Assembly (NCBI GenBank): GCA_017642935.1
Contig: JAEPOK010000001.1
Location: 1,471,192-1,535,191 of the forward strand
Direction: 5' to 3'
Source of the DNA: Hyphomicrobiales bacterium
Lineage (GTDB): Bacteria; Pseudomonadota; Alphaproteobacteria; Rhizobiales; MH13
DNA length: 64,000 nt
Shown: piece after piece, positions 41,901-58,580 of the stretch
How the letters are laid out: every line of letters starts with the position of its first letter
Numbering within the stretch: the stretch's first letter is position 1
Position numbers and translations under genes: made by a program
Notes under the pieces: model-generated
What the model was told of the DNA's origin: nothing
Database searches by the model: none
Seen by the model: the letters and a program-made list of their open reading frames with translations, nothing else

Positions 41901-42904
41901 AACCCATCCGGTGCGGTTGCCGCCGACGCTTGGAGGCTGAGTGTGCCGCTTTCCAGGTCCAACCGATCCAGCTGGAAGCCGCCCTCGCTTGGCAGTGTGC
42001 CGCTTGCCACAAGGGTAGAATCAGCCCCGAAGAAGCCGCGATAAGCAGGCGCAATGAGTGCCGAAATCGGGCCACTCAGATCGGCGTTGAACGACCGGCC
42101 ACCGTCAACCTCTTGCAACCGCAGCCCACCGCCAAGCACGCGACCGGCATCTGTGTTGAGTGCCAGATCAACGGTGAGATCATCCAGCGGACCATTGCCG
42201 GTCAGCGACAGGTCCACCGGTGGGCGGCCTTCCAGATTGAGCAGGTTGGCAACAACCCCATCGGCCGGCTCTTGCAGTTGAAAATCAAGCGTCAGTTCGG
42301 TCGATCGCTCCTCATACGCCGCCGCCAGGGTGAGCGAACCGCCCGGGCCATCCAGGCGGGTGACATCAAAGCTGGTGTCGAGCGATCCATCGGCCAGCGC
42401 GATGCTACCCTCGCCTGTCAGGGTCGCGGCCAGGCCAAACAGGGGTTCGCCGAGCGATGCTTCACCGATGGCCAAGCGATCAATGTTCACCGCAACCGGC
42501 AGGTCGGGCAGTTCAAGGGCCGTGGCTTCCGGCGATGGCGGGCGATCCTGCGGAAGCGGCATGCGCGGCCAGTCGATGGTTTCCGCCGACAGGCTTTCAA
42601 TATCGAGGCGGGCGCGGAAAAGCGCCGAGCGATCCCAAACGATTTGCGCATCGGTGAGCCGCAGCCAAACGCCCTCCTCGTCGGCGATGGTGATCTCAGC
42701 AATAGAGGCATTGGAGGACAGCGCGCCATCGATGCCGGTGATGCGGATCTCGCGACCGGGCGCAGAGAGTTGCTCCTCGACAAAGGTCAGAAAGCGCGAG
42801 CGCTCCTGCGCCTCATCGTTCTGCCCGCGCACCGGCAAAGCGAGGAAAGCAGCGCTGAGCGCCAGCACCGCAAGAACCGCGAAAAGGGAGAGGCGGCGGG
42901 CCAT
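38981..42904 (-). CDS. tamB: Translocation and assembly module protein TamB
   Basis: 1307 residues with an N-terminal signal anchor (ARRLSLFAVLAVLALSAAFL) and a long repetitive beta-rich body (AsmA/TamB taco fold). The C-terminal DUF490 region is clear: GPLARAPQLAGTINVRETEIQIPSSFD, FELLRGRFDILGQRIALGEGSITL, LILs-like VLARLIFDRGLNELSPLQIAQLA and the terminal LTARGSVGSDGESSLGIFFERDY. It bridges inner and outer membrane, working with TamA in outer membrane protein assembly and possibly phospholipid transport. Its start overlaps the tamA stop. Confidence 0.95.
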   Translation of the reverse strand: MARRLSLFAVLAVLALSAAFLALPVRGQNDEAQERSRFLTFVEEQLSAPGREIRITGIDGALSSNASIAEITIADEEGVWLRLTDAQIVWDRSALFRARLDIESLSAETIDWPRMPLPQDRPPSPEATALELPDLPVAVNIDRLAIGEASLGEPLFGLAATLTGEGSIALADGSLDTSFDVTRLDGPGGSLTLAAAYEERSTELTLDFQLQEPADGVVANLLNLEGRPPVDLSLTGNGPLDDLTVDLALNTDAGRVLGGGLRLQEVDGGRSFNADLSGPISALIAPAYRGFFGADSTLVASGTLPSEGGFQLDRLDLESGTLSLQASAATAPDGFLTALDLNASFAAETGASVLLPVPGEATRARAGALEVAYGGNNGDWQAAFGLDDLSTDALGIETVRFDLNGQSANLADAARRALSFQGSGEATGFSAADTALVEALGRQIALRLAGDWQAGNPVALDGLRVDGDAFTLAANGAIDTGVFDGQIVLDARTLAPFSGLAARDLGGAMQLVAQGTLNALTGGFDLDLDGTGNALQVGDDVADRLLAGQTRITGGLKRDADGTEARELRIRNNQLALRLDGMLSSTAADLVLQAELDDLRQINPGASGAANLNATVEGESGPYALSATLAVPAGRVYEQALREATITLSGLLDEEIFSGSLTGTGQFGSAPIDLSAELVAGPEERQVTGLRLDTQGATLTGDVRQTVETGLLNGALALNATNIRTLALLALQDASGAVNADVTLQPAADGQAVALTGSASDAAFGDARLGAARFDVAVRDAFGTPEITGTLNGQRLRAGEIAVASLQATSQASGAFTVAADGISAPQLRAAGLSSAQLRANGRYASNVIELASATLNAGQGIEATASGRIPLSGSGLNVDVRGSLPLGFAERFATDRGTQLSGVGTVNATARGSLADPQITGSIAVSGGQVVDPSTGIRLTDVTLAARLDGQRAVIERASAQVRGGGAINASGTVGLGDGLPADLRIGLNGVRYADGTLIVTTFDGDLTISGPLARAPQLAGTINVRETEIQIPSSFDSTAGLIDVEHIAPSDRVRATFERARGADSGGANRQSSVALGLNVLVSAPNQIYVRGRGVNAELGGQVRLTGTTNNVQPVGAFELLRGRFDILGQRIALGEGSITLVGDMDAFLNIVARTTGDAISVVIAVRGRISDPTLTLSSEPELPQDEVLARLIFDRGLNELSPLQIAQLALAANELAGNAQGSVLGSLRDGLGLSDLDVVTDDEGNPAVRATQYVQENVYVGVEASTAGQARTTINLDITEDLTARGSVGSDGESSLGIFFERDY

Positions 42905-44868
42905 CAGAACGCCTGCCCTATGCCGAGATAGACGGCGACATCCGGATCACCGGCGCGAGGATCGAGCGGGGTTGCGACGTCGAGGCGGATGGGGCCAAGC
43001 GGCGTCAGATAGCGGATGCCGCCGCCAACGCCGACGCGAATGTCTTCATCGAAGTCCGACAGGCTGTCGTCGGCAACGTGACCGAAATCAGCAAAGGCCA
43101 CCACGCCAAGTGTGTCGGTGACCCGGGCGCGCAACTCGGCCGATCCTTCCATCAGGAACCGCCCGGCGGTGATCTGCCCGCCTGGCTGGGTGACGCCGAT
43201 ATTGCGGTACTCATAGCCACGCACCGATCCACCACCGCCCGCCAGGAACAGCCGATCCGGTGCCGTATCGGCAATCGACGGGCCGACAAGCGAAGCAACT
43301 TTCAATCGGCCCGCCAAGACCAAACGGTCATCGAAGCCCAAGGATTGATAGGCGCGACCTTCGGCCGACACCACCACGCCAGGATTGCCGCGCGAAAACT
43401 CGTAGAACGGCTCAACCGCCCCTTCCATGAAGAAGCCGGACGTGGCGTCCGTCGGCATGTCGCGACTGTCATAGGTCAAGCGCGCTTCGAAGCCCGCACT
43501 GGTGAACTCGCGCTGGCCAAAAACCGCATCGTCGAAGTGGGCGTGGCGGCCTTCGATGGCGAAACGTCCGGTGAGTTCTGGCGTGAATGGGTGTTCCAGC
43601 CCCAGTTCGCCAGAGATCGACGTTCGGTCGTAGGCTTCCAGAACTTCGCGCTCGGCCTCCAAGGCGGCGATCAGGCGCGTATCGGGCGTGATGACGCCAG
43701 GCTTGGTGAAAGCCGCGCCCAAGCGATAGGTGAAGTCTTCCGGGTCGGCGCTGTTGATGCCCGAGATGCGCCCATCGAGCCGCAATCTTTCGGCCCGGCC
43801 AAACAGGTTGCGATGCAGCCAATAGGCTTCCAGGCCGAGGCCATCGACGGAGGAAACGCTGCCGCCGGCACCGATGCGGCGCAGCGGCATTTCCTGCACG
43901 AAGATGGTCTGCGGCAGGCTGCCATCGGTCGCTAAAGCTGCGGCCTGCTCGATGCGCACAGAGCGGAATACTTCAAGCGCCGTGAGCCGGGCATTGGCTT
44001 CGTCGATGTCATCGGGGTCATACTCTTGGCCTGGCGGCAGATCGGCCATGTAAGCGATGAACTCAGGGTCCATCCGCTCCGCGCCTTCTACCGTCAGCGC
44101 GCCATAGGTCGCGCGGCCATCGGGCGCCAAGGTGAGCACGACATCGACGGTGCGCGTGCGGTGATCGGCTTCAACGGAGCGATCGCCGCGTTCGGCCAGA
44201 GCATGTCCCTGCTCACGCCAGGCTTGAATCGCGGCTTGCTCGGCCTGGCGGATCACGCCGGATCGGGCGGGCGCGCCCGGAACGAACCCGATTTCCAAGA
44301 GAGTCGGCACTTCATCGCGCGGATCGGAGGTCGCCGGTGCAGCGTTGACGATCTGCAGATTGCCAAATCGGTAGAGCGGACCGGGATCGACACGGATCGC
44401 CACCATGGCCGGGGCGCTCAAATCAGCATCGGGCTCGATGGTCGCCGCTTCCTGGCCGTTCACACGGATCGAGATGGTGCCGCCATAATGGCCTTGCGCG
44501 TAGAGCGCACCCAAAATGCGGCGATAATCGCCACGGGCGTCGGCGAGCAGACCTGAAGACCCGAGGGCTGGGTCGTCGCGGCCACGCCAAAGGGCTGAGG
44601 CCGAGCGCAATGCATTCTCATCGAGGTCAGCCTCGCCGGATACATCAGCAGCGATTGTGACTTCGACCTCATAGGGCAGCGGCACACCAATGCTGAACTC
44701 GGCGGCATCCTCGTCATCGGCAGCACCGAACAGCTGCACGCCAAACAGCTCAAACGCCTGGGCCTGCCCGGCCGAGACCAGCGGGATCGCGCCTAGGAGC
44801 ATTGCAAGCGACCAGACGAGGCCGATCTTAGAGAAAGGGGTGCGAACAAGCCGCCTATACGCGTTCAC
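42904..44868 (-). CDS. tamA: Outer membrane assembly protein TamA (Omp85/BamA family)
   Basis: About 654 residues if translation begins at the GTG at 44868. This places a signal peptide (FSKIGLVWSLAMLLGAIPLV, ending AGQAQA) at the N-terminus. The open frame continues to 44979 with residues that do not look translated, so the start is uncertain. POTRA domains occupy roughly 60-340 (TYGALTVEGAERMDPEFIAYM). The C-terminal 16-strand barrel includes LFLAGGGGSVRGYEYRNIG, the VRGY motif of the Omp85 lid-lock loop, and ends with an aromatic residue, VYLGIGQAF. Confidence 0.92.
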   Translation of the reverse strand: MNAYRRLVRTPFSKIGLVWSLAMLLGAIPLVSAGQAQAFELFGVQLFGAADDEDAAEFSIGVPLPYEVEVTIAADVSGEADLDENALRSASALWRGRDDPALGSSGLLADARGDYRRILGALYAQGHYGGTISIRVNGQEAATIEPDADLSAPAMVAIRVDPGPLYRFGNLQIVNAAPATSDPRDEVPTLLEIGFVPGAPARSGVIRQAEQAAIQAWREQGHALAERGDRSVEADHRTRTVDVVLTLAPDGRATYGALTVEGAERMDPEFIAYMADLPPGQEYDPDDIDEANARLTALEVFRSVRIEQAAALATDGSLPQTIFVQEMPLRRIGAGGSVSSVDGLGLEAYWLHRNLFGRAERLRLDGRISGINSADPEDFTYRLGAAFTKPGVITPDTRLIAALEAEREVLEAYDRTSISGELGLEHPFTPELTGRFAIEGRHAHFDDAVFGQREFTSAGFEARLTYDSRDMPTDATSGFFMEGAVEPFYEFSRGNPGVVVSAEGRAYQSLGFDDRLVLAGRLKVASLVGPSIADTAPDRLFLAGGGGSVRGYEYRNIGVTQPGGQITAGRFLMEGSAELRARVTDTLGVVAFADFGHVADDSLSDFDEDIRVGVGGGIRYLTPLGPIRLDVATPLDPRAGDPDVAVYLGIGQAF

Positions 44869-45182
44869 GATAAAGGTGTCTGACCCAACTGAATGACTTC
44901 TCGTCCCTAAACACGCCGATCTGGCGCCAATCCCTGCGCATATGCCCATCTGAATCAGCTTTTGCGCAGGTGAAAGCACAAGCCGAAAGCGCGCTCCTGG
45001 CTTTATCGCACCAGTATCAACTTACAACCTTTACGCATCGTTCCCAATCACTTGGCGTCACGAAACGGCAAGAAGAACGCCGCTGTGACCTTCCTGCCAT
45101 TCGGGCAGGCAGCAGAGGCTGTTCGATGCTTCGCGCTTTCTGTCCATTGACAGGAACCTACACCTCGAACATCCTCGCTAAT
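44869..45182. other. Spacer between tamA and the tripartite transporter operon
   Basis: This stretch of about 310 bases probably holds the leftward tamA promoter and the rightward promoter of the catabolic operon. I see no protein-like frame or RNA gene. Composition shifts towards AT near 45170-45200, where the operator palindrome begins. Confidence 0.4.
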
Positions 45183-45200
45183 TAACTAACCACTTAGTTA
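45183..45200. promoter_or_regulatory. TetR-type operator in front of the catabolic operon
   Basis: Perfect palindrome TAACTAACCACTTAGTTA (arms TAACTAA and TTAGTTA, 4-base centre), 16 bases before the start codon of the TctC-type gene and next to its AAGGGGA ribosome site. The length and ACTAAC/GTTAGT flavour are typical of TetR-family operators. The TetR gene at 52806 inside the same operon is the natural partner. Confidence 0.7.
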
Positions 45201-45216
45201 GAAAAAGGGGAACGTC

Positions 45217-46227
45217 ATGAACACAACATACCGTTTTTTAGGTGCCGTCGCGGCCGTGTCCGCCATGGTTGTCAGCGCGCCTGTCGCCCAAGCTGAATGG
45301 CAACCGGATGGACCTGTTTCCATCGTCGTGCCCTGGTCGGCTGGCGGTTCCACCGACACGGTGACCCGCGTGCTGGCCGGTGAACTCACCGAAGCGCTTG
45401 GGCAAAACGTGGTGATCATCAACCAGCCTGGTGCGTCCGGTTCCGTCGGTACGCGTTCGGTTTGGGATGCGCCCCATGACGGTATGATGTGGGCCGCTGG
45501 CGCGGCGGCAGACCTTGGCGCCTATCCGGTTCTTGGCATGCTCGACGCAACGCTGCCCGACTGGCGGCTTTACCTGCATGTGGCCAACCCTGGCTTGATC
45601 TCGGTCCCAGCTGACAGCGACATCGAAGACTTTGGCCAGTTGCTGGAAGCGCTGCAAACCTCTGACGAGCCACTCACGGTTGCCACCGCCGGCCTGACGT
45701 CGGCCGGTGCCATCGCCATGGGCGCGATCGAAGGAGCCGCTGAGATCAACTACCGCCAGATTGTCTATGAAGGCGGCAATCCAGCGGTGATCGCGACGGT
45801 GGCAGGCGAGACCGACTTCACCTCGCAAACCGCCACAGAACAGGTGGACATGATCCGCGCCGAACGACTGCGCCCACTGGCGGTGATCGCGTCCTCGCCG
45901 CTGGAACTTGATGGCTACGGCACCGTGCCGCCAGTCACTGAATGGCTTCCCGATGTTCAAAGCGCCAACAATTATTTTGGCATTTGGATCCCCGCCGACG
46001 CTCCGCAGGATGTGCTCGATACGATGGATGCCGTTTGGGAAAACACCATCATGAGTTCTGAGGCGATGCAGGCATTCGCGGCAGAACGCGGCGCGCTGTT
46101 TGACCCGTCCTACGGTGACGCAGCCCAGGAAGCGGCGATGCCGATGCTCAGCATCAATGCCTGGCAGCAATATGATGGCGGCACCGCTGAAAACAGCCCG
46201 GAAGACTTCGGCATTCCGCGCCCCTAA
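45217..46227 (+). CDS. tctC: Tripartite tricarboxylate transporter substrate-binding protein (TctC/Bug family)
   Basis: 336 residues with a clear signal peptide (TYRFLGAVAAVSAMVVSAPV, cleavage after AQA near residue 26). Bug-family features are VSIVVPWSAGGSTDTVTRVLAGELTEALGQNVVIINQPGASG at residues 34-75, the loops that grip a carboxylate, and ADFTSQ-like ETDFTSQTATEQV. It delivers a carboxylated ligand to the TctAB permease encoded downstream. It is first in the operon, behind a TetR-type operator. Confidence 0.93.
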   Translation: MNTTYRFLGAVAAVSAMVVSAPVAQAEWQPDGPVSIVVPWSAGGSTDTVTRVLAGELTEALGQNVVIINQPGASGSVGTRSVWDAPHDGMMWAAGAAADLGAYPVLGMLDATLPDWRLYLHVANPGLISVPADSDIEDFGQLLEALQTSDEPLTVATAGLTSAGAIAMGAIEGAAEINYRQIVYEGGNPAVIATVAGETDFTSQTATEQVDMIRAERLRPLAVIASSPLELDGYGTVPPVTEWLPDVQSANNYFGIWIPADAPQDVLDTMDAVWENTIMSSEAMQAFAAERGALFDPSYGDAAQEAAMPMLSINAWQQYDGGTAENSPEDFGIPRP

Positions 46228-46243
46228 TCCCTGACCAAACTTG

Positions 46244-46277
46244 GCGGCCCGGCTCGTTTCGCGCGATGCCGGGCCGC
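46244..46277 (+). other. Hairpin between tctC and tctA
   Basis: Perfect 10-base stem GCGGCCCGGC (46244-46253) with GCCGGGCCGC (46268-46277) and a 14-base loop, 17 bases after the tctC stop. TCTTTCG follows, which is a weak T-tract at best. It fits attenuation between the binding-protein gene and the rest of the operon. Confidence 0.65.
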
Positions 46278-46350
46278 TCTTTCGAGCGGCGACGTGTTGC
46301 GTGGGCTCGACCAACCGCCCCTATTTTTTTGACGGAGTAATGCGCGCGCC

Positions 46351-47877
46351 ATGGACGGTGTCAGCCAGTTCTTGTCGGCTGCCCTGGCAATCGGGGCATC
46401 GCCCCAAATGCTTTACGTCTTCGGTGCAACGTTCCTGGGCATCGTAGTCGGCATGATCCCGGGGCTGACGGCGACGCTCGGCGTCGCGCTGGTGGCCACC
46501 CTCACCTTCACCATGGCGCAGGATGTGGCGATCCTGGTGCTCGTTTGCGTCTATATCGGCGCGATTTATGGCGGCAGCCGCTCGGCCATTCTGCTCAACA
46601 TTCCTGGAACACCCGCCAACGCAGCCACGGCACTCGACGGCCACCAATTGGCCGTTCAGGGCAAGGCGGGCGATGCAATGGTGATCGCCACCATCGGCTC
46701 GTTTCTGGGCACCGTGGTTGGCATGATTGGCTTGGCGATGATTGCGCCGCTGCTTGCTGAGTTCGCGCTGGAGTTCACCAGCTTTGAGTTCTTCTGGCTC
46801 GCCATTTTCGGCATCGTGATCTGCGGCCAGCTGACCGCCATGGGCGACCCGCTGAAAGGCTGGATCGCTGGGTTCTTTGGCCTGGCGGTCGCGATGGTTG
46901 GCCAGGAAAGCATCCACGCCTATTCGCGCTACACCTATGGCTGGCAGGATTTGGAAGGCGGGCTTGGCCTGCTGCCGGTGCTGGTCGGCGCGTTTGGTTG
47001 CGCTGAAGTGCTTTCGGTGATGCGCAACCGGGCCAGCGAGATGGTGGAGCATGTGGCGCGCACCTCGCGTGCGTCCTTCTTTGCGTTCACCAAATACACC
47101 AAGACCTGGATGCGCTCCGGCCTGATCGGCACGTTTATGGGAGTCGTTCCCGGTGTCGGCGAAGATATGGGCGCCTGGGTGTCATTGGCCGCCGCGCGGC
47201 GCGCCTCGAAGACCCCTGAAAAGATCGGCAAAGGCTCGGTGGAAGGGTTGCTGGCGGCCGAAACCGGCAACAATGCCGCCGTGCCAGGCGCGTTTGTGCC
47301 AGTTCTGACCTTGGCCATTCCGGGCTCAGCGCCCGCTGCCGTGCTGCTGGCCGCGATGGTGATCCATGGGCTTCGCCCAGGCCCGCTGATCATGATCACG
47401 CAACCCGATTTTTTCTACTCCATCGTCGCCATGGTTTTCTGGGCCAGCCTTGCAATGCTGGTTCTCGGTCTTTTGATGACGCGGCCTTTGCTGATGATCC
47501 TCAAAGTGCGGCGTGAATGGCTGATGGGCGTCATCTTCGTGCTCTGCGTGGTCGGCGCGTTTGCCATCGCCTCGCGTCCCTTTGATGTGGGCGTGATGAT
47601 CTGCTTCGGCATTCTGGGCTTCCTGATGCGCGAGACGGGCTTTCCTGTCGCGCCGATGATCCTGGGCGTCGTGCTCGGACCAATCCTGGATTCCAACCTG
47701 CGCCGCAGCCTTGCGCTCAGCCAAGGCGATCCGCTCGACTTCGTCACCCGGCCCATCAGCGCGGTGATCGCAGGGCTGGTCCTGCTCTCCATCCTGCTTG
47801 CTTTGCCCGGGGTTCGACGCGCGATCGCCAGCGCCCATCAACAGCTGTTCAACCGATCAAAGAGAGTGAGTGAATGA
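46351..47877 (+). CDS. tctA: Tripartite tricarboxylate transporter large permease (TctA)
   Basis: 508 residues, about 12 membrane helices. The two family repeats are evident: LGIVVGMIPGLTATLGVALV near residue 30 and FMGVVPGVGEDMGAWVSLAAA near 260. YIGAIYGGSRSAILLNIPGTPANAATALDGHQL near residue 70 is the signature. It carries substrate across the inner membrane using the proton gradient. The gene overlaps the following dehydrogenase gene by four bases, linking transport tightly to catabolism. Confidence 0.95.
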   Translation: MDGVSQFLSAALAIGASPQMLYVFGATFLGIVVGMIPGLTATLGVALVATLTFTMAQDVAILVLVCVYIGAIYGGSRSAILLNIPGTPANAATALDGHQLAVQGKAGDAMVIATIGSFLGTVVGMIGLAMIAPLLAEFALEFTSFEFFWLAIFGIVICGQLTAMGDPLKGWIAGFFGLAVAMVGQESIHAYSRYTYGWQDLEGGLGLLPVLVGAFGCAEVLSVMRNRASEMVEHVARTSRASFFAFTKYTKTWMRSGLIGTFMGVVPGVGEDMGAWVSLAAARRASKTPEKIGKGSVEGLLAAETGNNAAVPGAFVPVLTLAIPGSAPAAVLLAAMVIHGLRPGPLIMITQPDFFYSIVAMVFWASLAMLVLGLLMTRPLLMILKVRREWLMGVIFVLCVVGAFAIASRPFDVGVMICFGILGFLMRETGFPVAPMILGVVLGPILDSNLRRSLALSQGDPLDFVTRPISAVIAGLVLLSILLALPGVRRAIASAHQQLFNRSKRVSE

Positions 47878-48926
47878 GTGCGCCAGCGGCCATGACAACG
47901 GTTCTTCTGTGCGGGTATGGCGCCTTTGGGGCCCGCCACCACGCCGCCTGGTCGCGGCTCGGGGCCCGCGTGATTGTGTGCGACCCGAGTGAGGACGCGC
48001 GTGGACGGGCCAAGGAAGCCGGAGTCGACGCCGCCGATATTGCCGCCGGCATGGACGACCTGTTGGCGCGTGCCGATTGCGTCGCCATCGTCACACCGCC
48101 GGACACCCATCTTGCGCTCGCCGAACAGGCACTTGCCGCCGGCAAACCGGTCCTATTGGAAAAGCCTGCCGTTGCGACGCTTGAGGAAGCGCACGCTTTG
48201 GTCGAAGCGCGCTCGCGCAGCGGATGCGTGGTGCAAGTCAATCTGGTGCTGCGGGCCCACCCCATGACGATGCGAGCCCTTGAGGTGCTGGAGGCCGGAG
48301 AAATTGGCCATCTTGCGCTGATGGAAGGTCGGTTCTGCGGCTGGAAACGGCGGCATCTCGCCGTCGGCCTGGAAGAAAATGACGGCGTGCATTTTTTGGA
48401 TCTGATGCAGCTGTTCGCAGGCGCCAGCATCACGCGGGTGGGGGCCCATGCGGTCACACTGCCCTCGCCTCAATGCGCCGATGATATGATGCTTTGCACT
48501 CAGCACGCCAATGGCATTTGCGGACGGCTGTCGCTTGGCATGCTGATGCCCGGCGATGGCATCGACGCCTTCGTTCCCGGCGCCATGACCGACAAGGTGC
48601 TGAAACTGGTCGGCGATCGCGGGTGCCTGACGCTAGATTTCAACGCCAACCGGTTGACCTTCCAGGCCGTCCGGTTCGACCAAACTGAAACGACGATTGA
48701 GGTCGTGCCCTCGCGTTCTTGGAGCGAGGTGTTTCCCGGTGCGACGCCGGACCATCTGCTTGCCGCCAGTGCCCAACGCTTTCTCGCCGCCATTGATGGC
48801 AAAGAACCGCCTCTCGTGTCCCTGCATGACGGCGCCCTGGAGATCGCGCGGGTGCTCGCCGCGATCCCGACAGCCCGCGAGATTGCCGCCACCCGTTTCG
48901 TCCCGATTGATAGGATTGCGGTATGA
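47874..48926 (+). CDS. Gfo/Idh/MocA family oxidoreductase
   Basis: 350 residues. The N-terminal NAD(P)-binding fold has LLCGYGAFGARHHAAWSRLGA (residues 10-30). ADCVAIVTPPDTHLALAEQALAAGKPVLLEKPAVATLEEAHALVEA includes the EKP motif, whose lysine is catalytic. The C-terminal domain has ENDGVHFLDLMQLFAG, where the usual HxxxD (His acid/base) appears as HFLDL. It probably oxidises or reduces a hydroxyl of a sugar, inositol or sugar acid with NAD(P). It sits between tctA and tctB, overlapping both by four bases, which is unusual since tctA and tctB are generally adjacent. Confidence 0.9.
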   Translation: MSAPAAMTTVLLCGYGAFGARHHAAWSRLGARVIVCDPSEDARGRAKEAGVDAADIAAGMDDLLARADCVAIVTPPDTHLALAEQALAAGKPVLLEKPAVATLEEAHALVEARSRSGCVVQVNLVLRAHPMTMRALEVLEAGEIGHLALMEGRFCGWKRRHLAVGLEENDGVHFLDLMQLFAGASITRVGAHAVTLPSPQCADDMMLCTQHANGICGRLSLGMLMPGDGIDAFVPGAMTDKVLKLVGDRGCLTLDFNANRLTFQAVRFDQTETTIEVVPSRSWSEVFPGATPDHLLAASAQRFLAAIDGKEPPLVSLHDGALEIARVLAAIPTAREIAATRFVPIDRIAV

Positions 48927-49453
48927 GCGAGCCAAACCCGACTCCAACTGCAGACGCCCCGTCGCACCGCACCGACATGGTCCTCGGCCTGGTCGTGACA
49001 GCCCTTGGGTCAGCCATTCTGATCGGCGCGCTCGCCATGCCGCGTTTTGAACATCGCTCCGCTGATCCGTTGACGGTGCCGGGCATCGCGCCAGGCCTGC
49101 TCGGCGCGATCATTCTGGTCCTGGGGCTCATTCTGACGGTGCGCGGCGCCCGCCGCCAAAGCAGTGACGGACGGCTCTCGATCACCAGCTGGTCGCCACA
49201 GGCCATTCGGCGCACGCTGTTCACGCTGGGTGCGCTGCTCGTTTACGGCTTCGCGCTGTTTGGCAAACTGCCCTTTGTGCCGGCGACCGCCGCCTTCATT
49301 TTCGCCTTCACGGTTGGCGTTGAACTGATGCGCGAAGATCGCCGCTCATCGCTTGCCAAAACAATCATCGGCGCCGCCGTTCTCGCCTTGGTCGCGAGCC
49401 TGGTGATCTGGGCGGTGTTTTCCGAAATCTTCCTCATTCAACTGCCGGGATAG
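48923..49453 (+). CDS. tctB: Tripartite tricarboxylate transporter small permease (TctB)
   Basis: 176 residues with four membrane helices (about 14-36, 50-68, 95-115 and 142-170) and a short cytoplasmic loop after the second. The pattern DMVLGLVVTALGSAILIGAL, MPRFEHRSADPLTVPGIAPGLLGAIIL matches TctB. It completes the TctABC system even though its gene is separated from tctA by a dehydrogenase gene. Confidence 0.88.
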   Translation: MSEPNPTPTADAPSHRTDMVLGLVVTALGSAILIGALAMPRFEHRSADPLTVPGIAPGLLGAIILVLGLILTVRGARRQSSDGRLSITSWSPQAIRRTLFTLGALLVYGFALFGKLPFVPATAAFIFAFTVGVELMREDRRSSLAKTIIGAAVLALVASLVIWAVFSEIFLIQLPG

Positions 49454-49456
49454 CCC

Positions 49457-50299
49457 ATGCAACTGACGCTCTGTAACGAAGTGATCCGGGAGCTCGACTT
49501 CGCCGAGCAATGCCGGCTTGCGGCTGGTCTCGGTTATGTCGGTCTGGAGGTTGCACCGTTCACGCTGTCTGATGATCCCTGCAAGCTGCCAAAGAGCGAG
49601 CGGCAACGCCTGCGAGGCCACGCCGCCGATCACGGCATCATCATCACCGGACTGCACTGGCTCATGAACGTGCCCGATGGCATCTCTTTGACCAGCACAG
49701 ACAAAGCGGTTCAGTCGAAGACACGCGATCACATGCTCGGCCTTGTCGAGCTGTGTCACGATCTCGGTGGCAAAGTCCTGGTTCACGGATCGCCTGACCA
49801 ACGACCGATCCATCACGCCGGAAGCCTGGAAGCCGCTGAGGAGGTGGCCCTTGGTCATCTGACGGCAGCTGGCGATGCGGCGCACGCAGCAGGCATCACC
49901 TATTGTCTGGAACCGCTGGCACCTGCGCTGACCGATTTCGTCAACACGGTGGCGCAGGCAAAGGACCTGGTAACTCGATCCGGGTCCAAGGGCTTGGCGA
50001 CCATGCTCGATACGTCGGCGGCCTGGGGCGGAGAAAGCAAGTCACCGGCCAAAATCCTCGATCGAGAGCTGCCAAGCGGCATGATCCGGCATGTGCATTT
50101 CAATGAGTCCAATCGGCGTGGCCCCGGCCAAGGCGAGCATTGCTTCATGCCGATCGTTCGGGTGCTCGCCAACCATGGTTACGACGGCCTGATCGGTATC
50201 GAGCCCTTCGACTACCACCCCGATGGCCCCGCCGCTGCGGCGCTTGCCGCCGGCTATGTCGAAGGCCTCTGCGAAGCGCTGCACGAGTGCACGCCATGA
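49457..50299 (+). CDS. Sugar phosphate isomerase/epimerase family TIM-barrel protein
   Basis: 280 residues of the AP_endonuc_2/xylose isomerase-like fold. The start LTLCNEVIRELDFAEQCRLAAGLGYVGLEVAPF is typical. The expected metal ligands are Glu in TYCLEPLAP (about residue 154), Asp in TMLDTSAAWGG (about 180), His in RHVHFNESNRRGPGQG (about 212) and Glu in IGIEPFDYHP (about 256). Relatives include hydroxypyruvate isomerase, tagatose/psicose 3-epimerase and inosose dehydratase. In this operon it may isomerise an intermediate. The exact reaction is unknown. Confidence 0.88.
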   Translation: MQLTLCNEVIRELDFAEQCRLAAGLGYVGLEVAPFTLSDDPCKLPKSERQRLRGHAADHGIIITGLHWLMNVPDGISLTSTDKAVQSKTRDHMLGLVELCHDLGGKVLVHGSPDQRPIHHAGSLEAAEEVALGHLTAAGDAAHAAGITYCLEPLAPALTDFVNTVAQAKDLVTRSGSKGLATMLDTSAAWGGESKSPAKILDRELPSGMIRHVHFNESNRRGPGQGEHCFMPIVRVLANHGYDGLIGIEPFDYHPDGPAAAALAAGYVEGLCEALHECTP

Positions 50300-51765
50300 G
50301 CGGATCAGCGGCCAACGTCAAAGCGCTGAAAGGGCGCATCGGCATCACCAATGCCAAAGCGCGCATGCCGTTTCGCTTTGGCGCTGTGACCATCGAAGCG
50401 ATCGCCAGCTCGACGCTGGCGCTTGAGATGCTGGTGGATGGGCAAGTGGTCACCGGCTACGCCTCGGAGCTGCTCGCCTACAAATGGTTCGACAAGCGGC
50501 CGGAGAAAACGCCGCGCGACAACATCCATGACCTGCTCGATACGCTGAACGCCGCGGTGGATGCCGCCACGCAACTCGGTAACGGCACCATTTTCGATCA
50601 TTGGCGGGCCCTGGATAAGGCCGTGCACGCCCACGCCCTCAGCGTAGGCTTCAACGATCTCGGCGCCTCGTTCGGTGTGGCGATGGTTGAACGAGCGATG
50701 ATGGATGGGGTGGCGCGGGCGCACGGGCTAACCACATTCGACCTGCTGCGGGGATCGTCACTGGGGTTTCAGCCGGCCGCGATTTTTCCTGAACTGGGCA
50801 GCATGACCGTCGCTGATGCAATGCCGACGGCACCGCTTGACGAGGTAGCGCTACGACACACGGTCGGCATGGTCGATCCAATCACGGCAGCCGACCTTGA
50901 CCCGGACAATCGCCCCAGTGACGGTTTGCCGGAAACGCTGGAAGACTATCTGGCGCACGACCAGCTTTCTTATTTGAAGATCAAACTCGGCGGCGACGTG
51001 GACGCCGATTGCGCGCGCCTGGAACAGATCGGCGCCGTCATGGCCAACACGGGGCGGCGCATCGCCTTCACGCTCGATGGCAATGAGCAGTTTCAAAGCC
51101 TTGCTGACTTCGCCGACTTCACAAGCCGCCTGCGATCCTCATCTGTAGTCTCTAAGATGCTCGATGATGCGTTGTTCATCGAGCAGCCGCTCGACCGCCG
51201 CACGACCTTTGAAAACCCGCCTGATCAGGCAGCGTTCGATGCCATTGGGGTGCCGCTTTTGATCGATGAAGCCGATGGCAAGACGACGGCTTTCCACGAG
51301 GCCATCACGCTTGGTTATCGCGGCGTTAGCCACAAAAACTGCAAGGGCGTTTTCCGCTCGCTGCTCAATGCTATGCTCGCCGAACACCACAACCAAGCGG
51401 CAGGTCCCGGCACCTATTTCCAGTCCGCCGAAGATCTGACCTGCATGCCCGTTCTTTCCATCAATGCCGATCTTGCGCTGATTGCAGCCCTTGGCATCGC
51501 CCATGGTGAGCGCAACGCCCACCATTACTTCGCCGGCCTTAGCCATCTGACCGAGCGCGAAGCTGACACCGCTTTGGAGGCACACCCAGATCTTTATCAA
51601 CGCGACGGCGAAGCGGTGCGGCTGCGCACGCAATCGGGCGCGTTGTCGGCCCACACGGCGAACGGGCCAGGGTTTGGAACGATGTGTGTGCCAGACATCA
51701 ACGCCATGACGCCGGCCGATGCGTGGGACTTCAACAGTCTTGGCCTTTCGGAGGCCGGCTCATGA
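50296..51765 (+). CDS. Enolase-superfamily (mandelate racemase/muconate lactonising type) enzyme
   Basis: 489 residues from the ATG at 50296, which overlaps the previous stop. The active-site set is complete: KxK as YLKIKLGG (Lys228/230), Asp261 in TLDGNEQF, Glu296 in LFIEQPLD, Asp324/Glu325 in LLIDEADGK, and Lys347/Lys350 in SHKNCKG. This Lys-Asp-Glu-Asp/Glu-Lys layout belongs to the MLE subgroup (cycloisomerases, epimerases, synthases) rather than acid-sugar dehydratases with a His-Asp dyad. It is roughly 100 residues longer than usual, mostly in the N-terminal part and around 160-215. The substrate is unknown. Confidence 0.85.
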   Translation: MSGSAANVKALKGRIGITNAKARMPFRFGAVTIEAIASSTLALEMLVDGQVVTGYASELLAYKWFDKRPEKTPRDNIHDLLDTLNAAVDAATQLGNGTIFDHWRALDKAVHAHALSVGFNDLGASFGVAMVERAMMDGVARAHGLTTFDLLRGSSLGFQPAAIFPELGSMTVADAMPTAPLDEVALRHTVGMVDPITAADLDPDNRPSDGLPETLEDYLAHDQLSYLKIKLGGDVDADCARLEQIGAVMANTGRRIAFTLDGNEQFQSLADFADFTSRLRSSSVVSKMLDDALFIEQPLDRRTTFENPPDQAAFDAIGVPLLIDEADGKTTAFHEAITLGYRGVSHKNCKGVFRSLLNAMLAEHHNQAAGPGTYFQSAEDLTCMPVLSINADLALIAALGIAHGERNAHHYFAGLSHLTEREADTALEAHPDLYQRDGEAVRLRTQSGALSAHTANGPGFGTMCVPDINAMTPADAWDFNSLGLSEAGS

Positions 51766-51793
51766 GGCGCGATGCTCAATCAAGGAGACGATC

Positions 51794-52819
51794 ATGACTC
51801 CCCACCCAACCGCCATTGCCGATGAGGCCATGCTCGATAACATGCTGTCCACGCCGAGCGATGCGCTTGCCGAAACGCTGGCCGGGCTTGATGGCGACAT
51901 CACCATTTTGGGTGTTGGCGGCAAAATGGGGCCTACCTTGGCGCGGATGGCGAAGCGCGCCGCGCCGAGCAAACGGGTTATCGGCGTTGCACGGTTTTCC
52001 GACCCCAAAGTGCGATCGGAGCTTGAGTCTCAGGGCATTGAAACGGTGGCCTGCGACCTGCTCAACGAGACGGCTGTCAACGGGTTGGAAAAAACCACCA
52101 ATGTCGTCTTCATGGCCGGGCGCAAATTCGGATCTGAGGGCAACCAACCGCTGACCTGGGCGATGAATGTTCATGTTCCTGCAATCGTCGCGCAAGCTTT
52201 CAAAGACTCGCGAATTGCGGTCTTTTCAACAGCCTGCGTCTACGCATTCGCCGATGTGACCGACCCCGGCGCAAAAGAGGGCGATCCGCTAACGCCGCCT
52301 GGCGAATATGCCAATTCCTGCATCGGCCGCGAGCGCTTGTTTGAACACTTCGCCAATGTATACGGCACCAAGGTCTCGCTGCTGCGCCTCTCCTACGCCA
52401 TCGATCTGCGTTATGGCGTGCTGCACGATATCGGTCGCTCCGTGCTGGCAGGCGAGCCGGTTCAGGTCGATAGCGGACACTGCAACATCATCTGGCAGCG
52501 CGATGCCAATGATATCGCCTTGCGCACCTTGGCTTTGGCCGACAATCCGGCCGTTCCACTCAATCTTTCCGGGCCGAAAGTGGAAAGCGTGCGCGCGATG
52601 GCGCATGCGTTCGGCAAACATTTTGGCAAGGAACCGATCTTTGCCGGCGAGGAACAGTCGCAAGCCTGGATCGTCGACACGACCAAGCAGCAAGAGCTTT
52701 ACGGCGAACCCGGTGTTTCGACCGAAACCATGATCGGCTGGGTGGCCGACTGGCTGCAGCGCGGCGGCAAAACGCTTGGCAAACCAACCCATTTTGAGGT
52801 GCGCGATGGCGCTTACTGA
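51794..52819 (+). CDS. NAD-dependent epimerase/dehydratase-like (extended SDR) protein lacking the catalytic lysine
   Basis: 341 residues from the ATG at 51794 with AAGGAG upstream. Rossmann glycine motif ILGVGGKMGPTLARMAKR lies at residues 38-55. VVFMAGRKFG and VFSTACVYAF correspond to strands 4 and 5. The active-site tyrosine is Tyr172 in GEYANSCIGRERLFEHF, but the lysine expected four residues later (YxxxK) is Cys176. Substrate may instead be handled by other residues, or the protein may have a non-canonical mechanism. WIVDTTKQQELYGEP near the C-terminus is the usual SDR end. Confidence 0.85.
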   Translation: MTPHPTAIADEAMLDNMLSTPSDALAETLAGLDGDITILGVGGKMGPTLARMAKRAAPSKRVIGVARFSDPKVRSELESQGIETVACDLLNETAVNGLEKTTNVVFMAGRKFGSEGNQPLTWAMNVHVPAIVAQAFKDSRIAVFSTACVYAFADVTDPGAKEGDPLTPPGEYANSCIGRERLFEHFANVYGTKVSLLRLSYAIDLRYGVLHDIGRSVLAGEPVQVDSGHCNIIWQRDANDIALRTLALADNPAVPLNLSGPKVESVRAMAHAFGKHFGKEPIFAGEEQSQAWIVDTTKQQELYGEPGVSTETMIGWVADWLQRGGKTLGKPTHFEVRDGAY

Positions 52820-53459
52820 GGTTCGAGACGCTCCCGCAACGCGCAACGCGGCCAAGAGCCGCCAGCGCATCTTGGATGCCGCCGAGACGGTCTTCGCGAC
52901 CAGAGGGCTGGAGGGCACGCGGATGGCGGCAATCGCTGATCTGGCCGGCTGCAACCAGGCGCTGCTCTATCACTATTTTGCCAGCAAGGACGATCTGTTT
53001 ACCGCCGTCTTGGAACAGACCTACGCCAAGATCCGTGCTGCCGAACAGAAGCTTGAGCTTGATGATCTTCAACCTATGGCCGCAATGCAAAAGCTGGTTG
53101 AGTTTTCGTTCGATTATGTGCGCGACAATCCAAGCTTCATCAAACTGATCAATGACGAAAACATGCACGGCGCGGAACATCTGAAGGCGTCGGATGAAGC
53201 TCGGCAACTCAACACACCGCTGGTCGATACCATTGCAACCATCTTGCAGGCTGGAGTGGCGAGCGGCGATTTCCGCAATGGGGTCGATCCGGTACAGCTT
53301 TACATCACGATCGCAAGCTTGGCCTATTTCTTCACCTCCAACCGCGCCACGCTGTCGGTGATCTTCGACCTGCCTGACGCCAAGGCGTGTTTTGCCCTGC
53401 GGCGCGCGCACATCGTCGAGGTCGTGCTTGGCTATCTGCGCACTTCGCGTGTGACTTGA
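52806..53459 (+). CDS. TetR family transcriptional regulator
   Basis: 217 residues from the ATG at 52806, which lies inside the end of the preceding gene with GAGGTG as ribosome site. The DNA-binding domain is at 14-60 (KSRQRILDAAETVFATRGLEGTRMAAIADLAGCNQALLYHYFASKDDLFTAVLEQ). The rest is a helical ligand domain. Embedded in the operon it probably controls, it most likely binds the palindrome at 45183-45200 and is released by a pathway intermediate or the transported acid. Confidence 0.92.
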   Translation: MALTEVRDAPATRNAAKSRQRILDAAETVFATRGLEGTRMAAIADLAGCNQALLYHYFASKDDLFTAVLEQTYAKIRAAEQKLELDDLQPMAAMQKLVEFSFDYVRDNPSFIKLINDENMHGAEHLKASDEARQLNTPLVDTIATILQAGVASGDFRNGVDPVQLYITIASLAYFFTSNRATLSVIFDLPDAKACFALRRAHIVEVVLGYLRTSRVT

Positions 53460-53470
53460 CGGAGCCAGCC

Positions 53471-54511
53471 ATGATCAACAGCACAGCTTGGGACAAACTT
53501 CGACGTGGTGGCGTCATTCCGGCTCATCCACTGGCGCTGGACGCCAATCGGCAACTCAGCGAATGCCATCAACGCGCGTTGTCGCGCTATTATTTGGATG
53601 CCGGTTCTATAGGGCTTGCAGTGGGTGTGCACACGACCCAGTTCGAAATTCGCGACCATGGCCTGCTGCGCCCGGTGCTGGAACTGGCCGCCGAGGAGGC
53701 AAATGCCCATCCAAACGAGCCGTTTATGGTTGCCGGGGCCATCGGCAAAACGGACCAGGCGGTGGAGGAGGCAGAACTTGCGCGCGACCTCGGCTATCAT
53801 GCGGTGCTTTTGAGCCTCGCAGCACTGAAAGAGGCCAGCGAAGATGAACTCATCGCCCATTGCGAAGCGGTAGCTCGGGTGATGCCGCTGGTCGGGTTTT
53901 ATCTCCAACCCGCCGTCGGCGGCCAAACGCTGCGTTATGAGTTCTGGCGGCGGTTTGCCGAGATCGAAAATGTTGTCGCGATCAAGATTGCGCCGTTCAA
54001 CCGCTACAAGACGCTCGATGTGGTTCGGGCAGTGGTGGATGCGCGCGCCGAGGAGCGGATCACGCTTTACACCGGCAATGATGATCACATCGTCGCTGAT
54101 CTGCTGACCGAGTTCGCCATCCCTCGCGACGGGCAGGCGGTGAAAGTGCGCATCAAGGGCGGGCTGCTTGGCCACTGGGCGGTGTGGACCAAACGCGCCG
54201 TGGAACTGCTAGACGAAATCCACACCAATCAAGCGGGTCGCAGTACCAGCGAATGGCTTGGCCTCGATGCCCGTGTGACGGACTCCAACGGTGTGCTCTT
54301 CGACGTGCGCAACGATTTTGCCGGTTGCATCGCGGCCATCCACGAAGTGCTGCGTCGCCAAGGCCTGCTGCCTGGAATCTGGTGTCTCAACCCGGACGAA
54401 ACGCTCGGGCCGGGTCAGATGGACGAGATCGAGCGCATTTACCGGGACTACCCGGAGCTCAATGATGATGCATTCGTGACTGAAAATCTGGAGAAGTGGC
54501 TAACGCCTTGA
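53471..54511 (+). CDS. Dihydrodipicolinate synthase/N-acetylneuraminate lyase family aldolase
   Basis: 346 residues from the ATG at 53471. It is a TIM barrel with the Schiff-base lysine Lys172 in VVAIKIAPFNRYK and the catalytic tyrosine Tyr144 in LVGFYLQPAVGG. MVAGAIGKTDQAVEEAELARDLGYHAVLL is the conserved middle strand. Such class I aldolases cleave or form bonds to pyruvate, or dehydrate/decarboxylate sugar acids. It is about 45 residues longer than DapA. As the last gene of the operon it is a good candidate for the final cleavage to pyruvate or another keto acid and an aldehyde. The substrate is inferred only. Confidence 0.9.
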   Translation: MINSTAWDKLRRGGVIPAHPLALDANRQLSECHQRALSRYYLDAGSIGLAVGVHTTQFEIRDHGLLRPVLELAAEEANAHPNEPFMVAGAIGKTDQAVEEAELARDLGYHAVLLSLAALKEASEDELIAHCEAVARVMPLVGFYLQPAVGGQTLRYEFWRRFAEIENVVAIKIAPFNRYKTLDVVRAVVDARAEERITLYTGNDDHIVADLLTEFAIPRDGQAVKVRIKGGLLGHWAVWTKRAVELLDEIHTNQAGRSTSEWLGLDARVTDSNGVLFDVRNDFAGCIAAIHEVLRRQGLLPGIWCLNPDETLGPGQMDEIERIYRDYPELNDDAFVTENLEKWLTP

Positions 54512-54527: not shown

Positions 54528-54555
54528 AAGGAGGGCTCGCGAGCGAACCCTCCTT
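54528..54555. terminator. Bidirectional terminator between the catabolic operon and the DUF1328 gene
   Basis: Stem AAGGAGGG (54528-54535) with CCCTCCTT (54548-54555); six A precede it. The minus-strand transcript therefore ends in a run of T, making this a good terminator for the leftward gene and a plausible weaker one for the rightward operon. Confidence 0.8.
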
Positions 54556-56795: not shown

Positions 56796-57359
56796 TCAAG
56801 CAGCCGCTCCGCGATCGAAAGCGTCGGAGATTTCGCGCGCCGATTGGGCCTGGACGCTTGGTGAACCGGAGAGCTCGTGCGAGCCATTCATTAGCTCTTC
56901 AAGTTCAGCGCGCGCACGCGACACCCGGCTTTTCACAGTGCCGGGTTTGGTATCCATGATCTCGGCGGCCTCTTCATAGGAGTAACCGCTGGCGGTAACC
57001 AGGAGCAGCGCCTCGCGCTTTTCATCGGCGATCATTTGCAACGCGGACATGAGGTCTTTGACTTCCAGATTGTCCTGCTGGCGGCCAGGCGTGACAAGCG
57101 TGGCGGCAAAATGGCCATCGCCATCTTCAACCTCACGGCGACGCTTGCGGCCTTCAGAGAAATATTGGTTGCGCAGGATAGTGATCAGCCAAGCTTGCGC
57201 GTTGGACCCCTCTTGGAAGGAATCGATCTTGGTCAGCGCCTTGGCCAAGGCTTCCTGGACCAGATCGTCGGCGCGCACCGCATTGCCGCAAAGCGAGCGC
57301 GCGAACGCCCGCAAAGCCGGGATGGCATCGATGAATTGCTTTTTGACCGCAGCGCTCAT
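56796..57359 (-). CDS. ecfG: General stress ECF sigma factor EcfG
   Basis: 187 residues. Region 2 is at about 10-75 (RAFARSLCGNAVRADDLVQEALAKALTKIDSFQEGSNAQAWLITILRNQYFSEGRKR) and region 4 at about 110-165 (LMSALQMIADEKREALLLVTASGYSYEEAAEIMDTKPGTVKSRVSRARAELEEL). It directs RNA polymerase to GGAAC/CGTT promoters, several of which occur in this window. NepR holds it inactive; phosphorylated PhyR removes NepR. The gene overlaps nepR by four bases, the usual nepR-ecfG order. Confidence 0.95.
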   Translation of the reverse strand: MSAAVKKQFIDAIPALRAFARSLCGNAVRADDLVQEALAKALTKIDSFQEGSNAQAWLITILRNQYFSEGRKRRREVEDGDGHFAATLVTPGRQQDNLEVKDLMSALQMIADEKREALLLVTASGYSYEEAAEIMDTKPGTVKSRVSRARAELEELMNGSHELSGSPSVQAQSAREISDAFDRGAAA

Positions 57360-57613
57360 CGGGAAACCCCCTCGTCGGAAGCTTCGCCATCGCGTGGCCC
57401 ATCCTGGTCGGCATTGTCTTCCTCGTCGTCCAGCGCGTCGAGCAACGCCAGCATGTCGTCAGGAATGCCTTCTTCCACGGTCGACCGATACAGCTGCTTT
57501 AAGCTTGTCGCGACCCAATCGTCGTTTTGTCCATCAATTTTCACGTCGGCCTCATCATCGCTTTCGTGTGTTTCACTTGGTTTGGACTCAGGGCGCGGCT
57601 GGTCTCCAGACAT
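57356..57613 (-). CDS. nepR: Anti-sigma factor NepR
   Basis: About 85 residues from the ATG at 57613, with GGAAGGA upstream; a TTG two codons earlier is possible. Both ends are acidic and disordered, and the two-helix core is IDGQNDDWVATSLKQLYRSTVEEGIPDDMLALLDALD. That core contains the LKQLY and IPDDMLALLD helices which bind EcfG or the PhyR sigma-like domain. Position between phyR and ecfG confirms the call. Confidence 0.93.
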   Translation of the reverse strand: MSGDQPRPESKPSETHESDDEADVKIDGQNDDWVATSLKQLYRSTVEEGIPDDMLALLDALDDEEDNADQDGPRDGEASDEGVSR

Positions 57614-57642
57614 GCTCAATTATCCTTCCTTGGTGGACGCTC

Positions 57643-57667
57643 AACGCAGGTAAAAACAAAAAGTTCC
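57643..57667 (-). promoter_or_regulatory. EcfG-dependent promoter of nepR-ecfG
   Basis: On the minus strand GGAAC (57667-57663) and CGTT (57646-57643) are separated by 16 bases, matching the known EcfG consensus. Initiation would fall about 20-25 bases before the nepR start. The operon is therefore probably autoregulated. The -35 box is half of the palindrome TTCCAAA-AAAA-TTTGGAA (57664-57681), whose other half faces phyR. Confidence 0.8.
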
Positions 57668-57776
57668 AAAAAAATTTGGAAACAATGGAACCATATCCGT
57701 AACCAGGCATATTTGGGTACATAATGTCGCTTTCGCCGTCGCAGCGAAACGCCTTGCCTTAAGCCAGGAGCTCCCA

Positions 57777-58580
57777 ATGTCGAAGATCAGCGAAGCCATT
57801 CGCCCTCACCTGCCCTTTCTGCGCCGGTACGCCCGAGCATTGACTGGGTCGCAAAAGTCCGGCGATGCTTATGTGCGCGCTTGCTTGGAGGCCTTGATCG
57901 CCGACCGTTCTTTGTTTGACGGCGACCTGCCGCCCCGCGTTGCACTTTATCGCGTGTTCCATGCGCTCTGGTCGTCCTCGTCCACACCAACCGCAGAGGG
58001 TGATGATGCCTCGCTGTTTGAGCGTACCGCCCAGGAACGGCTGGAGCGGATGGCACCGGAAAACCGTCAGGCATTGCTTCTGAAATCCTTGGAGCAGTTT
58101 TCCGAAGACCATGTGGCTGTCATCATGGACCGCACGCCGATGGATGTGGCCTTGCTGGTCGAGCGGGCGATAAGCGAGATCACTGACAGCGTCAAAGCCG
58201 ATGTTTTGATCATCGAAGACGAGCCACTCATTTCCATGGACCTAGCCGAGATCGTCGAAGACCTTGGCCATGCGGTCAGCGGTCAGGCCACCACGGCAAG
58301 CCAGGCCATCGCGGCGGCAGGGGCCAACACGCCTGATCTGGTGCTTGCCGACATTCAACTTGCGGACGGGTCTTCGGGCATCGATGCGGTGAAATCGATC
58401 CTCGCCGATGTCGATGTGCCTGTAATTTTCATCACCTCTTTCCCCGAGCGCCTGCTGACCGGTGAGCGCCCGGAGCCGACCTTCCTGATCACCAAACCCT
58501 ATGATCCGGACATGGTCCGCGCGGCTGTGTCACAGGCGCTGTTCTTCCGCTCGACGGCGCCACTAGAGTTGGCGTTTTAA
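57777..58580 (+). CDS. phyR: General stress response regulator PhyR
   Basis: 267 residues. The N-terminal sigma-like domain (about 1-135: HLPFLRRYARALTGSQKSGDAYVRACLEALIAD and PENRQALLLKSLEQFSEDHVAVIM) mimics EcfG and captures NepR. The receiver domain (about 140-260) has acidic pair Glu147/Asp148 in VLIIEDEPL, the phospho-acceptor Asp192 in LVLADIQLADG and the conserved lysine in LITKPYD. AGGAG stands six bases before the ATG. It is divergent from nepR-ecfG, the standard arrangement. Confidence 0.96.
   Translation: MSKISEAIRPHLPFLRRYARALTGSQKSGDAYVRACLEALIADRSLFDGDLPPRVALYRVFHALWSSSSTPTAEGDDASLFERTAQERLERMAPENRQALLLKSLEQFSEDHVAVIMDRTPMDVALLVERAISEITDSVKADVLIIEDEPLISMDLAEIVEDLGHAVSGQATTASQAIAAAGANTPDLVLADIQLADGSSGIDAVKSILADVDVPVIFITSFPERLLTGERPEPTFLITKPYDPDMVRAAVSQALFFRSTAPLELAF

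Follow-up and report, generated by a model that had tools for sequence, protein, structure and literature searches.

A run of nine genes at positions 45217–54511 of the window (the whole 64,000-nucleotide stretch of Hyphomicrobiales bacterium DNA that was analysed) raises the question of whether these genes form one catabolic pathway and, if so, what substrate the pathway serves. The original prediction described nine head-to-tail genes of named families in this region, and this is borne out by the open reading frames and the Pfam matches: all nine frames are open and on the plus strand. Gene content and gene order are read directly from the sequence, as are the operator, the active-site residues and the co-occurrence described below.

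The first gene (45217–46227) encodes a TctC-like periplasmic binding protein of 336 amino acids (Pfam TctC, 3.9e-16), which has TctC/Bug homologues in the PDB. It is followed by the TctA permease (46351–47877, 508 aa; Pfam TctA, 1.2e-132), an accessory Gfo/Idh/MocA oxidoreductase, termed GFO (47874–48926, 350 aa; Pfam GFO_IDH_MocA), and the small permease subunit TctB (48923–49453, 176 aa; Pfam TctB, 5.1e-14). TctC, TctA and TctB each exceed the Pfam cut-off, and thus a complete set of tripartite tricarboxylate transporter (TTT) subunits is present, in agreement with the proposed importer. The three subunits are those of known transporters of this type, but here the Gfo gene is interleaved among them. 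The remaining genes encode a TIM-barrel isomerase/epimerase (49457–50299; Pfam AP_endonuc_2), an enolase-superfamily protein termed ENO (50296–51765, 489 aa; Pfam MR_MLE_C), a lysine-less extended SDR (51794–52819, 341 aa; Pfam Epimerase), a RutR-like TetR-family regulator (52806–53459, 217 aa; Pfam TetR_N/TetR_C_29) and a DHDPS-like, putative Schiff-base enzyme (53471–54511, 346 aa; Pfam DHDPS).

The overlaps of 4 bases that were said to join most of the genes are found at three of the eight junctions (TctA/GFO, GFO/TctB and TIM/ENO) but not at the other five. SDR and TetR overlap by 14 nt, and there are gaps of 123 nt (TctC/TctA), 3 nt (TctB/TIM), 28 nt (ENO/SDR) and 11 nt (TetR/DHDPS). A GGAGGG...CCCTCC hairpin read by eye at positions 54530–54553, with a T-run on the minus strand side, is a possible terminator; it is absent from the output of the terminator scan. 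The flanking genes are unrelated to the operon, i.e. TamA/TamB-like genes on the opposite strand upstream (38981–44979), and downstream a phospholipase D-like gene and genes of the alphaproteobacterial general stress response, which encode an EcfG-type sigma factor and a PhyR response regulator (56796–58580).

A candidate TetR operator, TAACTAACCACTTAGTTAG, is located at positions 45183–45201, about 30 bp upstream of tctC. This palindrome is the sole match in the genome at up to two mismatches. Of 25 homologous loci, 19 have a related palindrome (pattern STAWCCnnnnGGTTAS, at most two mismatches) near tctC, where 0.008 sites per locus would be expected. Since the palindrome recurs and is unique in the genome, the nine genes very probably constitute one TetR-controlled unit. 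The unit has no regulator gene other than that of TetR, which is kept inside homologous operons, and TetR is thus the natural binder of the palindrome; we infer that TetR binds TAACTAACCACTTAGTTAG. A scan found no sigma-70 consensus promoter, a consensus that says little in alphaproteobacteria.

A scan of genome contigs for ENO yielded 40 loci. All nine genes are present in identical order at 11 other alphaproteobacterial loci (Nitratireductor, Mesorhizobium, Aquamicrobium, Roseitalea, a Rhizobiaceae MAG, Oceaniglobus, Alterinioella, Roseicyclus and Tropicimonas), and eight more loci (Devosia, Sneathiella and a MAG) display an eight-gene version without GFO. Judged from these nine-gene and eight-gene loci, the arrangement is not due to chance, and the view of the genes as a single operon holds when gene neighbourhoods are compared. 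Many alphaproteobacteria of the sea and of soil have the operon, and an annotated Nitratireductor plasmid carries a copy of it. One MAG operon has no SDR between ENO and TetR. ENO, SDR and DHDPS were not found in three congeners; the operon is therefore patchy and has possibly spread horizontally. The DHDPS-like protein, the SDR and TctA (64%–78% identical across homologous operons) are among the best conserved of the operon proteins. GFO is among the least conserved, with 43%–50% identity. Because it is poorly conserved and is missing from homologous operons, including those of Devosia and Sneathiella, an obligatory first oxidation by GFO, with which the originally suggested sequence of redox, isomerisation, enolate chemistry and aldol cleavage would begin, is doubtful.

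The ENO amino acid sequence scores 26.8 bits against Pfam MR_MLE_C, which is under the gathering cut-off of 29.4, and gave no sequence match in the PDB and no match in NCBIfam. Its predicted structure (pLDDT 89, pTM 0.91, from a 25-sequence alignment) displays a modified TIM barrel with a capping domain, with a Z score of 30.3 to 3dg6 over 354 residues. Residues K228/K230, D261, E296, D324 and K347 sit where barrel strands 2 to 6 of the model end and are invariant in the 25 aligned sequences. This is the pattern of the MLE subgroup, in which strand 2 carries KxK, strands 3–5 the D/E/D metal ligands and strand 6 a Lys. The best structural matches (VIA-align, Z 28–30) are muconate lactonizing enzymes, one of which is the top match, dipeptide epimerases and NSAR/OSBS. 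Thus the model, the residues and the fold neighbours place ENO in the MLE subgroup of the enolase superfamily, as had been proposed. ENO shares the fold (Z about 30) and the active-site pattern with this subgroup, but has only 14%–20% identity to its best structural matches, and the part N-terminal to barrel strand 2 is longer. The analysis found no relative of ENO that has been characterised. MLE-subgroup enzymes characterised to date mostly use muconates, OSB, N-acyl amino acids, dipeptides or betaines, not sugar acids. ENO homologues are also found on plasmids of the haloarchaea Natronococcus and Haladaptatus, which suggests that ENO has spread across domains.

The SDR has the sequence YANSC at positions 172–176 where YxxxK is expected, and so lacks the lysine, as the original prediction had stated. 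This is a feature of the whole family: in 24 of 24 aligned sequences, including those of Bacillota and Actinomycetota, the Tyr is kept and the Lys position is Cys or Val. The nearest fold is that of TerB (Z 28.1). The SDR shares with the extended SDR epimerases/reductases (TerB, GalE) the fold, the GxxGxxG motif and the catalytic Tyr; in contrast, the catalytic Lys, which TerB retains, is replaced in every aligned member.

The DHDPS-like enzyme has the Lys and Tyr of the DHDPS/N-acetylneuraminate lyase family of class I aldolases/dehydratases at the correct spacing. The Schiff-base residue K172 is present in all aligned sequences, and Y144 is replaced only in three distant homologues. The alignments therefore support the assignment to the DHDPS family, but several features differ. 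V149 aligns to the Arg of DapA that binds the carboxylate of aspartate semialdehyde (across 29 sequences this Val is conserved at 95% or more), the GTTGE-type motif is replaced by VHTTQF, and there is an additional C-terminal part. Because Val replaces the DapA Arg, the protein is not a DHDPS (DapA); it is likely a Schiff-base lyase or dehydratase.

The TIM-barrel sequence, when aligned to D-psicose 3-epimerase, retains the metal site residues E152, D185, H212 and E249, which are at least 95% conserved in 37 sequences and correspond to the E-D-H-E metal and catalytic site of ketose 3-epimerases (DTE/DPE). These residues and an ESNRR-PG-G motif are shared with D-psicose/D-tagatose 3-epimerases and with IolO (5-keto-L-gluconate epimerase). 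IolO is the best NCBIfam match, but the score of 65.8 bits is far under the equivalog cut-off of 300.

Genome distributions link these proteins to one another and to DUF993. Of 297 genomes of the order, in counts that ignore phylogenetic non-independence, 25 have a match to the SDR (E at most 1e-40), and these 25 are also the only ones with a match to the DHDPS-like protein at this threshold; ENO is present in 42, including 23 of these 25, and DUF993 in 88, including 41 of the 42 with ENO. In some genomes ENO and the SDR–DHDPS pair are at separate loci and still co-occur. Annotated records from other phyla have the DHDPS-like gene adjoining an SDR-type gene or one gene away from it; neighbour records of this pair come from Rhodococcus, Sulfitobacter, Paenibacillus, Tistrella, Glaciihabitans, Streptomyces, Mesobacillus, Aquisphaera and Prescottella.

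In other genomes ENO is often followed by genes for Gfo, DUF993 and a second TIM barrel. A second cluster in the same genome (C1:880961-888126; L191:7962-15127) has the order TctC-TctB-TctA-TetR-Gfo-DUF993-TIM. Its TctA and TctC are 56% and 51% identical to those of the operon, and a TTACCTACTAGTCAGTAA-type palindrome is located directly before its tctC. This cluster probably belongs to the same system. The nested occurrence suggests that a peripheral module (SDR–DHDPS and ENO) feeds a more widespread trunk (Gfo-DUF993-TIM).

Several related clusters were also seen. Conserved genes for SDR, GNAT and DHDPS are found with SsuABC-like ABC importer genes and TetR at six loci; this set seems to be a variant in which TctABC is replaced. 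An L-serine ammonia-lyase gene adjoins the lysine-less SDR gene in two unrelated bacteria (Prescottella and a Comamonadaceae MAG). At four loci DUF993 belongs to a CUT1 sugar-ABC cluster that also holds a classical SDR and two GMC-like oxidoreductases; such clusters may represent another orphan sugar pathway.

What is the substrate? The usual substrates of TTT, enolase-superfamily and DHDPS-family proteins are carboxylates or 2-keto acids. An organic acid substrate is therefore very likely, and the analysis indicates that the operon probably imports and breaks down such an acid. A sugar acid (or polyol), the class originally suggested, is plausible. The ketose-epimerase site of the TIM barrel and the CUT1-type sugar ABC genes beside DUF993 elsewhere point to it, and an aldonate dehydratase gene beside ENO in Rhizobium favours it. 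A TTT that imports uronate (alginate) oligosaccharides is known (PMC13390454) and is counted on the same side. The PDB relatives of TctC do not fix a ligand. Quinate, rhizopine, mycosporine, Kdo and glucosylglycerate were considered as substrates and dropped, there being no supporting evidence. On balance, with slightly better than an even chance, we favour a single TetR-repressed unit that takes up and breaks down a small organic acid; a polyhydroxylated carboxylate resembling a sugar acid is the most likely candidate.

Against a sugar acid stand the known substrates of the MLE subgroup and the gene neighbours of the SDR–DHDPS pair in other genomes: a GNAT acetyltransferase gene (between the two in many genomes) or, in others, genes for an amidase or L-serine ammonia-lyase, neighbours that suggest an amino-acid or amino-sugar derivative. 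The MAG operon that has no SDR between ENO and TetR and the three distant homologues without the DHDPS Tyr also count against the favoured reading. If an N-acylated or amide-containing acid of this kind is broken down, ENO would catalyse a 1,1-proton transfer, as N-succinylamino acid racemase or dipeptide epimerase does, and the DHDPS-like enzyme would be a lyase or deaminase. This fits the MLE subgroup as nearest fold of ENO, which includes dipeptide epimerases and NSAR, and a PIG-L deacetylase gene is present near ENO. However, the operon has no amidase gene, a search of this genome (run without a positive control) found no GNAT homologue, and both the ketose-epimerase-like TIM barrel and the CUT1 neighbours of DUF993 speak for a sugar. 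We regard an amino derivative as possible but rather unlikely.

Degradation of an alicyclic or aromatic-derived acid appears less probable still. Gfo would then be a dihydrodiol-type dehydrogenase, the TIM barrel a dehydratase, ENO a lactone cycloisomerase and the DHDPS-like enzyme an acylpyruvate aldolase. Muconate lactonizing enzyme is the best fold match of ENO, related operons have SsuABC-type systems in place of TctABC, and the PDB relatives of the operon TctC include terephthalate-binding proteins of the TTT type, which are known (PMC8556258). Yet none of the nine genes encodes a ring-cleaving or hydroxylating oxygenase, and the TIM-barrel metal site matches that of ketose 3-epimerases. 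Finally, it is very improbable that paralogous catabolic genes came together here by chance and do not form one pathway: alphaproteobacterial genomes are rich in members of these families, but the kept order, the kept operator and the identical presence patterns contradict this reading.

For the favoured sugar-acid-like carboxylate we infer the class of substrate, the order of reactions and each catalytic step as follows. TctC would capture the anion and TctAB would import it. The TIM barrel, with its active-site metal, may epimerise or isomerise a keto intermediate. ENO, by means of its KxK/K dyad and metal, would take the proton next to the carboxylate, leading to beta-elimination, cycloisomerisation or epimerisation. 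K172 of the DHDPS-like enzyme would form a Schiff base with the resulting 2-keto acid for cleavage or dehydration, and the lysine-less SDR may work together with this enzyme. GFO would be an optional oxidoreductase. The Gfo-DUF993-TIM genes of the second TctABC-TetR operon would probably complete part of the route.

None of the nine operon proteins reaches an NCBIfam equivalog cut-off. The glycoside 3-oxidation and levoglucosan pathways have in common with the operon the joint presence of Gfo and sugar-isomerase-type (AP_endonuc_2) TIM barrels; to our knowledge, they are without a TTT importer, an MLE-type enolase, a DHDPS-like enzyme or a lysine-less SDR. Open-licence literature on this combination of genes, on DUF993 and on pathways through 3-keto-sugars gave no matching pathway (a subscription paper could exist), and that on N-succinylamino acid racemase gave nothing relevant. 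In Price et al. 2022 (PMC9007349), the passages covered by a term search make no mention of enolase, DHDPS or TTT families. The original prediction that the genes match no characterised pathway thus stands for NCBIfam, the PDB and the open literature. This is a real, conserved and undescribed catabolic operon; every part of it comes from a known superfamily, and two orphan enzyme families are found within it.

The operon may represent part of a widespread undescribed system, a proposal we make tentatively and put at somewhat under an even chance. This system would combine a peripheral operon (TctABC, ENO, TIM, SDR–DHDPS) with a Gfo-DUF993-TIM trunk operon. It would be based on an enolase family of the MLE subgroup that is uncharacterised and on a lysine-less SDR that is paired, apparently obligately, with a DHDPS-like Schiff-base enzyme in several phyla, and the substrate would be an environmentally common, unrecognised organic acid. 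The operator, TctC and the identical presence patterns make this system directly testable. If true, it would at once give a function to orphan families, i.e. the long MLE-subgroup enolase family, the lysine-less SDR family and DUF993, and would reveal a nutrient of many marine and rhizosphere alphaproteobacteria.
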